A stretch of DNA of 64,000 nt from Sthenelais limicola (Eukaryota; Annelida; Polychaeta; Phyllodocida; Sigalionidae): positions 54,774,773 to 54,838,772 of the forward strand of contig OW804095.1 of assembly GCA_942159475.1 (NCBI GenBank), given 5' to 3'. Below the pieces are notes generated by a model that did no database searches, was not told the origin of the DNA, and saw only the letters and a program-made list of their open reading frames with translations. Each line of letters starts with the position of its first letter. Position 1 is the first letter of the stretch. Position numbers and translations under genes: made by a program. Shown piece by piece: positions 21,108 through 61,779 of the stretch.

Positions 21108-24100
21108 ATGGACATGGTCGAGGATAGGACCTCCGCCAAGGAGTTAGATCAATGGATCGAGCAGTTGAACGACTGCAAGCAACTTACAGAAAATCAAGTC
21201 AAAACTCTTTGTGAAAAGGTATGTTATTTTGCTAATTTCCCATAGTTACGCTTGTTCCAACATTATATAACATTGACACTGTCACCTTTGTATGTCGTAT
21301 TGCATTGTGGAACATGACAAAGCATGAAACATGTGTTCAGTGGCACTGGATTTATCAAATTCTCGACCTTCGCGACCGACAATTAAAAGGAATTCACGTC
21401 GTTAGGTCTAGGCACATTCTAACTGTTACTTGCTTGTACCGGCCGGTTCCATGTCTACCAATGATAGTGTAGAGCAATAACTCCCCCTGTATTTATCAAC
21501 AATACGTCCGGAAAGGTGGCACCTGTGGTTCATCATTAGCCTGGATAAGGCATTTAGAGTATCAGGTCGCTGTCAAGGCATAGCGCAAATGTTTATTCAA
21601 TACCAGTTGACGTCGTCGTAGCCGTAGGTAAATTAGATAGAAATCGCTCGGCGCCAAAATAAAAAATGACAAAATCTGGAACCTTTTAATTTAAACTAGA
21701 TTAGATCAAGTGTTTATTGGAAAAAACCCTTCGAAAATATCAAGGTATCTATTCTGAAATGCTCGAATCCTAGCTTGGGGGACAAACTTGTCATGGATTA
21801 ATAGTTTCTTTTCTGAATTAGTTTTCATTTTTAGCCTTTCCTGGGAGTGACAATCCCTAGTTGTGGCCCAGTGACCGGGAGGCTCACTGTCAAGGTACCA
21901 CCCTCCAATGGTGTTAAAATAAATGCACAGAAACGGCTAACATTGCTAAAACTACATTATCCATCATTTGACTTGTTGCCCGCATATGAAAGTTATAAAA
22001 TAAACTTATATTGAATTGCAGGGTGCAGATGGACACAATTTTTGCTATTCTTTCATTAAATGGCAGATTCGTTTCACGTAGAGAATTGAATATATATTTC
22101 ATCCAATTTGTGATATGAGGAACATGTTTAGACGATTTTAGATACAGTATTACTGTTTGATTGAAGTATTATTGGGTAAAATAGAAAATGGGTTAGGGTA
22201 GATATTGATTATTGTTTCATGTATAATTCCATCCCACATTCAATTCATAGTCACAGGTTAGAATCATATTTAATTCACGACAGCTATTTTAATTTTAAAA
22301 ATTACAAGTGCCTTGGGCACTTGGATTACACAGGTAGTTTTTTCTACTTCTTTTAGGAATCCGACCAAAAAAGAAGGGTTTTTTCCGATCCGTTTTTTTT
22401 TTGAAATATAGGAGAGTCAAGGGGCCGATTTAGGGGGGTGGCGCAGGGGCACACACCCCCTCCCTTTCAAAATCAGGCTTAGGGTATTCTGTGGTGCGAA
22501 AGACACATGAGCAAATTCATGTACATAACACTAACTATAAAACAGGTATCTCATGGTTCGGACTTCCCCCAGTCCAGAGCACATACATATTAATGACTTT
22601 TTAATGACCAAATAAAAAGGAATTTTTTTTATTTCAATCAATGAGAGGCCCATTCTAGGGCCAACATCCATGCAATTTCATGTTGTGTATTTATGTCATT
22701 CATGATGGTGCAGGGTTCTCAATATTTCTAAGATGCATTGATGAACTCCAAAACTACAAAACAAAACTTTTATTCAATATGTCAACAAAGAACCGCCAAC
22801 CCAGCAATTGACATAAAAAATTACAATTGCTGTTTGGTCCTCCACTCTTCAAGGTGTCTTGTGTTATCTTTACTGAAATAAAAACATACTTACTTACTTA
22901 CATTACTCTTGTGTTTTTCTTTTTAATCCTTACAACTTTTAACTCTTAATATACTCTATTATACAATCTTCAGGGGGAATTACAGATCATTGTAAAAACC
23001 TTCCCACATCTTGAATTCTTTATCATTAGCTGTACCATAACTAACAGAGTCTTTCATGGCTCTTAGTGCGATTTTGACTTCACGAAGAAATTCAGAAAAG
23101 CACACTTTGTTACGTTGAAACAACCTAACTCTATAAATATAAAACTTTACTTTTATAATAATGAAGTTTAGCCTTCTGTGTTTTGTTTCTTGTGACGGTA
23201 TGCCTAACAATATGTGAGCTGCATTAATGTCATCTACTATTTCACATTCACCGTCAATCCATTTTTTTCTGCTCTGGTAAGTCACTTTTAATCCAGATTG
23301 GTTTGCTTCCTTCCGGTACGACTTGCTTTTCCAGCTCCGGCCTTTTTGTCCACACTTTGTTCACATCAGCCTCGCATGTTAATTGCATTAAGACGGCTGA
23401 TTCCCTTTCCCATTCTAAAGCAGGTTTTCAGTTGGATGCCTGTTAGCCCCAACACATTCTGAAGGATCGTATCAAGTTTCTGTCTGAACTGTTCTCTGGA
23501 TTCTTCCTCTTCATCTACTCCTTCTATGATCAAATTTAAGGCTCTTTCCAGCAGTTGTTTTTTAATCCAATCCTCCTCCTCTGCCTTAGCTAGCCTTTCT
23601 ATGTCTCTGAAGCTTTGATCGGTTTTCTTGACTTTTTTCTTCCAGTCTGTAAACCCTTTTGTCTTGACCAACCGCTTTCTTTCTCATCTTTCCTTATCTC
23701 TCTTGATGTTATCGTCTTTGATGCTCTTAATTTCATCGTTATTCTCATTTGCTATCTTGGATACCAGGCCTATTTGGTCTGTCAGCTGTTGGGCGAGCAA
23801 GCAACAAGTGTTTTCAACTGCTCTATGCCCTTCCCGGCCATATCGTCTTCGCTAGCCTTTGTCTTTTTCTCTCAGAGCGTCCTTCGCCCGCCATTCACAA
23901 CTTCTACTATATTCAGTCTTATAAAACAGGAAGAATTCACAAGATTTACGCTTTAGACACTGGTTCAGTGTTTATGTTTTGATTTGGAGCTTCCTCTCAC
24001 GTATGCGCAAGAGCTCCTTCCTGTGTCTGAATGGTTGTCCACGTACAATCCGTTCACGACAGCCGAGCAATCAGATCATTACTCAGTTTTGTCTATTTGA

Positions 24101-59664: not shown

Positions 59665-61779
59665 GTGGAGATGGCATGGGTGGGAAAACAGAGAGATAGA
59701 GAGAATGGAAGCGAGAGCGGGCGAAAGAAAAGAGAGGCTGCTGTCTTTTAGAGCTCTCCCTTTAATTTGAGTCAAGGCGGCGGTGGACGCTACAACAAAA
59801 AGGAAATAATTAAAAAGCGGATCAACATATGCTTCTTGTAATCTCCTCCTCCTCACAACCAAAGAAAGAAAGTAATGGCCAACAGTCGACACTTACACCT
59901 CTCAGATTTTCAATTAAACTTGGCTACCCTAGACTTTTAAGAAATGCACAATATGGGTGTGATTTTTGGATGAAACTCAGTAATTACGGATGGAAACAAA
60001 CTGATTATTGGTGATTTACCCTTATATGAAGAAGAGGATTATGACGTAGAATGAAAACAAGAGCTGATGTCAGACATGGAACATCAGTGTGCGCGCCTAT
60101 CTGCCGTATAAGAAAAAATGAACCATACTGGAGAGAAAAATAAGAAAATGAAATATGTAGTGTTGTAGACATCTTGATCGGGTGGTGCATAGATCTGTAT
60201 ATATGATCTGTGCATGTCAGAATGAATGATGTGATGAATTCTCTATGATGCTGAGGAGGCGTATAGAGCTCTGTCACCACTGGTAGCTACTTCTGTCCAG
60301 GGAGGGACCTGTATGAACTTGTTCATTGTCTCATAATATCTCCCCATTTTTCAAAGCCTTGCGAGACCCTGAATACGCTCATCTTATCCAAGTATAGTCT
60401 TTTTGCTTGGGACTTGGCCCCTCCCTGGAACTAATAGGAGCAGTCTCTTCTGCCTGTGAACCTACACTCATCTACGAAAAGAAAAACAATGTTAAGAAAA
60501 AAACCCTCAAAAAAAGCTCGCGTTATGGCTGTTTATTCCTCCCGACCTGCCCTCATATTTCACTGTTATCTCAGCATTTTATGTTGGACTTTTATCTGCA
60601 CTTGGGACGTGTGTCAAACTTAAGTGGTGGCAGAGCATTGATGTGTCGTAGTGACAGCGCATTAACATGTATCGCCATCCACCCATGTTGGTGTGTGGCT
60701 TGGCGTGGTGTTAATGACCGTCACATGTTGACGGCCGATTCTAGATCTGTGACTGTTACTTGCATGGTGTACAATACAAATTGTTACCGCACCTGATTAG
60801 GCGATAGGCTTGTAATTGAAGTAACATTGAGTAATGAAATAATTATAATCCCTAATCTTATAGATTTATTTTACCTTCTTCCATAGATTTTGCAATATAT
60901 GAGATATATGTTCGTGTTAAGGATTTCCAAGTCCCTATTAATGAATAAAGTAACTGATAAGTGAACTAGTTTTTTTCATGAACAAATATGAGAGATTCGT
61001 TTCGTGCTCACCTTCCTAGGAAAAGTGGCAATAAAAGACAATAGTATTTATGTGTTTGTTTGAGCGTTGTGAACCACGGTAGCTTAAATCATTGGTTGAT
61101 CCGACTGCAATATGCGCTGTAATTTATTCAATATATGTATGCAGTATTTATGAGATATTTCAATTTGTTTTGCACATTGCCGTTGTATTTGTACATATAT
61201 ACCAGTACTTATTGGCGAGTGAACATGTGGTAGATGTTGAGGTAGTCCGAGACCTCTCCGCCCTTCTTTTTTCCTCTTACCTTATTCGATGGCCCTTACC
61301 CCGAGTCATCCCTTGCTTGCGTGACCCCCAAGATAAAATTCAACCCTCTCCCACACCCTATGAAGCAGAGGTGTACAGGGCTGTCAGCTCTGTCCCCTTT
61401 GGTGCATATCCTATGTAATCCTTAGCATCGTTTACGTTACAGTATGGGAAGATAGGCTGAAGAATATTGACCTCGGGATGGTTTGTTTTTTTCTAGTGCA
61501 AAGCTAACAGTTTAAATCTTGGGCTTAGACAAGCACAGAATTATCGAAATATAATTTTAACATCTGTTTCTTGGCGTTTTCCTGTACTTCGTGTGTTGGG
61601 CCAAGAGAATACTGTTGGCATCTTTTGGGGGTTGTCCACAAGCTAGTACTGCGTCTTCATTTCATGTTTTAAGATACTGGGAACAATTTTTATCATTTGT
61701 AAGTCTGCCCCCAACGAATTATAAGCGCAACCAAAGTTCATCAATACTGAATAGTTACTCTCACACATACCTTGCTTAA
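59665..61779 (+). other. PP2A copy 2 3' UTR and flank
   Basis: Colinear with 28496-30573. AATAAA signals at 60944-60949 and 61030-61035 are conserved. No further gene. Confidence 0.6.

Follow-up and report, generated by a model that had tools for sequence, protein, structure and literature searches.

In the 64-kb window analysed here, a stretch of 64,000 nucleotides from the annelid Sthenelais limicola, the gene for the catalytic subunit of PP2A consists of a single exon 1 followed by two complete sets of exons 2–7, which we designate set A and set B. The sequence makes it quite probable that one promoter and one exon 1 serve the two sets as alternative terminal cassettes, with the choice between them made by splicing and polyadenylation. 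The source assembly comprises 1.13 Gb in 161 contigs, and the window corresponds to positions 54774773–54838772 of contig C2. For the analyses reaching beyond the window, 10 kb of upstream and 20 kb of downstream sequence were added, giving 94 kb around the locus; all positions are given in window coordinates. The exons and the limits of the duplicated units are as follows.

21108–21218, plus strand: exon 1 (coding part), common to both sets; 37 codons, ending in phase 0, donor AAG/GTATGT; only copy found in the assembly
24988–44446, plus strand: duplicated unit A (exons 2–7A and the 3′ flank up to the junction), delimited by homology and by the junction match
25352–25561, plus strand: exon 2A
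25909–26082, plus strand: exon 3A
26224–26313, plus strand: exon 4A
27562–27723, plus strand: exon 5A
28092–28210, plus strand: exon 6A
28423–28495, plus strand: exon 7A, coding part including the stop codon
29740–29832, plus strand: two AATAAA signals 3′ of set A (29740 and 29827), found at the corresponding positions 3′ of set B as well
44321–44446, plus strand: end of unit A, 126 bp; sole other place found in the assembly at 70444–70569, outside the window
44447–44451, plus strand: junction of the tandem duplication, with an overlap of one nucleotide and neither filler nor N
44451–64000, plus strand: duplicated unit B, within the window; homology to A up to 61779, resuming outside the window at 70444–70569
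44816–45025, plus strand: exon 2B
45309–45482, plus strand: exon 3B
45625–45714, plus strand: exon 4B
57502–57663, plus strand: exon 5B
59261–59379, plus strand: exon 6B
59592–59664, plus strand: exon 7B, coding part including the stop codon
60944–61035, plus strand: two AATAAA signals 3′ of set B (60944 and 61030)

Exon 1 can be joined in frame to either set. Each joined version has 939 nt encoding 312 residues with one terminal stop, and all six introns in each are of the GT-AG type. The coding lengths of exons 1–7 are 111, 210, 174, 90, 162, 119, and 73, of which the first five are divisible by three. Exons 2A and 2B are 19464 bases apart, and the two sets differ at 23 nucleotides and eight amino acids (A to B: T46S, N50E, C105G, F155Y, Q161L, L189I, T234S, and R286K). 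A first-pass annotation of this DNA had described one exon 1 and two sets about 19.5 kb apart, with intact splice sites, phases and stops, eight residue differences between them, and a set B that lacks an exon 1 and whose homology begins at 44451 inside intron 1. The coordinates, the spacing, the integrity of both reading frames, the residue count and the start of the homology were all reproduced, and no second exon 1 was found in the assembly.

Both products have the character of PP2A catalytic subunits. The set A protein matches PF00149 (Calcineurin-like phosphoesterase) with 150 bits, and the best match of the set B protein among solved structures is the human PP2A catalytic alpha subunit (4i5l_C, E = 6.1e-212), covering residues 5–312, that is, to the end. 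The sequences GDxHG, GDxVDRG and GNHE and the C-terminal TPDYFL, which we take to be motifs of the PP2A catalytic subunit (PPP2C), are found in both translations.

The two sets are parts of larger repeated units. Homology between A and B extends from 24988/44451 through 30573/61779 and is interrupted in introns 4 and 5. In addition, the 126 bp located just before the B homology (44321–44446) match positions 70444–70569 downstream of set B at 95%, about 9 kb beyond the end of set B's homology. In the intervening stretches, 30573–44321 on the A side and 61779–70444 on the B side, the units have lost their resemblance, and the A-side stretch contains reverse-transcriptase and transposase frames. 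An assembly search with this 126-bp sequence, in which very common words are skipped, gave two candidates, and both are these two places. At the junction, a single nucleotide is common to both sides and there is no filler. The end of unit A, whose counterpart lies 3′ of the gene, adjoins intron-1 sequence, as is expected where a tandem duplication is joined. On this reading, a segmental duplication in tandem, with one breakpoint in intron 1 and the other 3′ of the gene, copied exons 2–7 but neither the promoter nor exon 1; because the copied segment began inside intron 1, these two elements were never duplicated. Among other origins considered, a retrocopy was rejected since neither set has lost its introns, loss of a duplicated exon 1 was rejected since the junction sits in intron 1, and chance was rejected since six exons occur in order twice. 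The earlier suggestion of a paralogue with a distant or lost first exon was likewise abandoned, because the exon-1 region was found once in the assembly and the duplication starts within intron 1.

The same order of pieces would be produced by a false join of two haplotypes, in which one contig ended beyond the gene and the next started in intron 1 (a heterotype false duplication). False duplications were widespread in the assemblies studied in a survey, where they can consist of adjacent haplotypes and can lack exons, as described for NPNT and NPNT-like (PMC9516828). We nevertheless consider such an artefact highly improbable at this locus. An assembly gap between the copies is the most frequent sign of a heterotype false duplication, and there is no N in the 94 kb around the locus; moreover, the junction is clean, with its one-nucleotide overlap. 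The units are also unlike over much of their length: outside the 126 bp, the comparison of 30574–44450 with 61780–84000 gave no match better than E = 0.26. Few eukaryotic enzymes are as conserved as the PP2A catalytic subunit. Over the 275 residues of exons 2–7, A and B differ at eight positions and B and human PPP2CA at nine, and a difference of this size is probably far above that between alleles of one animal. The argument of the first-pass annotation that alleles of so conserved a protein should not differ at eight residues thus holds, and we regard the two sets as a genuine tandem duplication.

The divergence of the two sets was measured against their noncoding sequence. In 3344 aligned noncoding bases, a set that excludes intron 5 and the central part of intron 4, which could not be aligned, A and B differ at 142 bases (4.25%) and by 33 insertion or deletion (indel) events. 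In exons 2–7, the synonymous divergence (dS) is 0.070 and the replacement divergence (dN) is 0.016, giving a ratio of 0.23. At the noncoding rate, neutrality would predict 26.8 replacement changes and 8.2 exon indels, compared with 10 (P = 1.9e-4) and 0 (P = 2.8e-4) observed; for one branch alone, the absence of indels has P = 0.017. The changes were polarised with the best 120 of 7989 homologue matches in a protein set clustered at 90% identity. The counts use 116 of these, as P0001–P0004 were dropped because their scores and coverage pointed to merged or internally repeated models. Two of the dropped entries, P0001 and P0002 (predicted PP2A proteins, one a eukprot entry and the other from Rotaria socialis), have internally repeated PP2A segments and could represent merged predictions of exons duplicated in tandem in other animals.

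At the eight differing sites, 115 of the 116 homologues are nearer to B, none is nearer to A, and one is tied. Set A is clearly derived at positions 46, 50, 155, 161, and 286 and likely so at 234, and positions 105 and 189 can be read either way. Even if 105 and 189 changed on the B branch, this branch would have two changes compared with 13.4 expected (P = 1.6e-4). On these comparisons, set B appears as the copy nearer to the ancestral protein and under strong constraint, and set A as the copy that carries most of the changes. The constraint on set A appears weaker but is probably real: its 10 replacements compare with 21.0 expected by the synonymous rate (P = 0.006), and they lie at variable sites (mean entropy 1.14, compared with 0.35 for random sites; P = 1.5e-4).

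Several observations concerning set A weigh against the use of both cassettes, and they also bear on the possibility that one set is silent and decaying, so that only A or only B makes protein. By the noncoding rate, the 10 replacements on branch A compare with 13.4 expected (P = 0.22), which is compatible with neutrality. Set A has most of the replacements, including glutamine 161 in exon 3A, a residue present in none of the 115 homologues with a residue there, all of which have leucine. In contrast to simple decay, seven of the eight A residues recur in other PP2As, compared with 19.5% of the possible single-base replacement changes (P = 7e-5), in a test whose null takes B as the ancestor and allows single-base changes only and whose homologues are not independent. 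The A replacements at 46 and 50 differ from B by two bases, unlike the changes of this null. When the two sites of open polarity are omitted, five of six A residues still occur in homologues (P = 0.0014). Neither set has a stop, an indel or a broken splice site; the absence of indels is improbable under neutrality even for a single branch, as given above, but only 0.8 stop would be expected anyway. Set B, for its part, is nearer to the ancestral protein. Neither set looks like a pseudogene by these features, and we judge a silent, decaying set to be a highly improbable explanation of the locus.

A search for other PP2A genes or first exons was made over the whole assembly. The exon-1 region (401 bp) gave a single match, the only candidate (1/1). 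In a six-frame search with the 312-residue protein, all 59 candidates were scored (59/59) and 41 matches were obtained, of which 13 are exon 1, the six A exons and the six B exons. The remaining 28 come from other parts of the assembly and are at most 80% identical, as we would expect for PP4, PP6, PP1, and other relatives. A Pfam search and a comparison of its matches agree that PP2A catalytic exons are present at this locus only. Within what is assembled, this is the only PP2A catalytic-subunit gene found.

These searches bear on another possibility, namely that set B is expressed from a first exon or start of its own that escaped recognition, or receives a trans-spliced leader, so that A and B are two separate genes. 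Some means of expression must exist for set B, which is strongly conserved, and a 13.9-kb spacer lies ahead of its homologous part. However, when the exon-1 peptide was compared with the 94 kb by tblastn, exon 1 itself was found and then nothing better than E = 0.74. The best other match in the assembly that includes exon-1 residues, with 62% identity, belongs to a different phosphatase on contig C5, where it is surrounded by the exons of that gene. The spacer contains no CpG-rich stretch at the threshold used, which is a weak point, as the exon-1 promoter fails the same threshold. Two separate genes therefore seem unlikely to us, if slightly less so than the other alternatives weighed above.

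Because set B is conserved, and because neither a separate exon 1 for it nor a further PP2A gene was found in the assembly, the simplest conclusion is that the junction 21218–44816 is used. In the proposed scheme of a shared first exon, exon 1 would be spliced to 25352 to give the set A transcript, which would end at the poly(A) signals of A. Alternatively, exon 2A would be skipped and the polymerase would read past A, so that exon 1 is spliced to 44816 to give the set B transcript. The use of set B would thus take a 23.6-kb splice past the complete cassette A. Each cassette has its own AATAAA signals on its 3′ side, where cleavage is predicted. The acceptors of exons 2A and 2B differ by one base within 25 bases, and the choice is therefore unlikely to rest on acceptor strength. 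Since exons 2–5 are all in phase 0 in both sets, mosaics of A and B exons would be possible too. That exon 1 could splice to either set was already proposed in the first-pass annotation, and it is the best-supported reading; we infer the use of both junctions, and the choice of splice and poly(A) site, from the arrangement of the sequence.

Two further difficulties for a shared first exon concern this choice. Set A lies ahead of set B, and its splice sites and poly(A) signals are good, so that B requires both skipping of A and read-through. In addition, when intron 1 was compared with the two acceptor regions for selector-like RNA pairing, the best complementary stretches were 9–14 nt, as in three shuffles. 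It appears about evenly balanced on present sequence evidence whether, in this species, the form nearest to the PP2A of other animals can arise only when a complete, functional cassette upstream, itself equipped with poly(A) signals, is skipped, as a switch between the conserved B and the derived A.

In vertebrates, too, a single animal has a pair of nearly identical PP2A catalytic subunits, PPP2CA and PPP2CB. Unlike the two sets described here, these are two complete genes at different loci, with their own promoters and first exons. The closest likeness in layout is found in genes of other families. The pip gene of Drosophila melanogaster has the same kind of alternative terminal cassettes, with eight clusters of a sulfotransferase that are treated there as tandem duplications in untranslated regions, compared with two sets of PP2A here (PMC9013439). 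According to a reference cited there, the choice in pip is made by competing RNA structures (PMC9013439), and no sign of such pairing beyond three shuffles was seen at the PP2A locus. In vertebrate GNAO, which encodes a conserved signalling protein, the last two exons, 7–8, were duplicated locally, and the two resulting terminal pairs are used in a mutually exclusive way; this duplication involves only two exons, occurs in all major vertebrate clades and is old, whereas the one described here is young and comprises six of the seven coding exons and 275 of the 312 residues (PMC5896119). Exon 10 of Crassostrea AOX is similar in that both copies are used and that the second copy is conserved and the first divergent, as are B and A (PMC5589949). 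It differs in that only one exon is involved, the copies are much more diverged (63.5–65.9% between them), and one of the two transcripts contains both through an alternative acceptor (PMC5589949).

The anatomy of the PP2A locus fits the kind represented by pip, GNAO, and AOX: a single upstream exon and tandem homologous cassettes, each with an acceptor, a compatible phase and a stop. The layout is thus of a known kind in other genes. Its occurrence in this gene is unusual, and so are the young age of the duplication and its reach over six of the seven coding exons. The earlier remark that the arrangement was unfamiliar for this gene stands in that no report of the layout for any PP2A gene was found among the papers listed in the literature searches, from which subscription journals were mostly absent, so that absence is not proven; it does not extend to other genes.

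Several mobile elements and neighbouring genes were recognised in and around the locus.

51506–56934, plus strand: DIRS-like retrotransposon lying within intron 4B, with inverted repeats and with long open frames, reverse transcriptase and tyrosine recombinase
71325–75991, minus strand, outside the window: frames resembling the DIRS-like element by eye, just past the downstream duplication breakpoint
36519–38979, minus strand: reverse-transcriptase frames of LINE-like type, split into overlapping pieces, within the spacer
42513–43897, minus strand: transposase remnant in the spacer near the duplication junction, with DDE_Tnp_1_7 at 42513–42914
18372–18713, minus strand: WD40 exon, upstream of and divergent from PP2A exon 1
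77439–80885, minus strand, outside the window: frames presumably of a CCAR1/2-type gene, tail to tail with the PP2A locus
4310–4628: tandem array of units of roughly 46 bp, whose minus strand carries long open frames

The DIRS class name of the first element is our assumption, as is piggyBac for the transposase remnant. The DIRS-like element has a 90-nt inverted repeat (56598–56687 and 56845–56934) that is 100% complementary, and it is perhaps young. The WD40 exon presumably belongs to RACK1, and its promoter region is possibly common to it and PP2A.

With about 4% noncoding divergence, the duplication is young, and it has placed a second copy of 88% of the protein behind a single first exon; the locus would thus represent an alternative-terminal-cassette gene caught early. 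It affects a gene for which no other copy was found in the assembly and in which mis-splicing should be poorly tolerated. The locus is therefore well suited to testing how expression of a distal cassette is maintained when a complete one precedes it, and how eight residue changes affect PP2A. If the proposed use of one first exon by two cassettes is true, the main serine/threonine phosphatase of the cell would be under a splice-and-polyadenylation switch between a conserved isoform (B) and a derived one (A).

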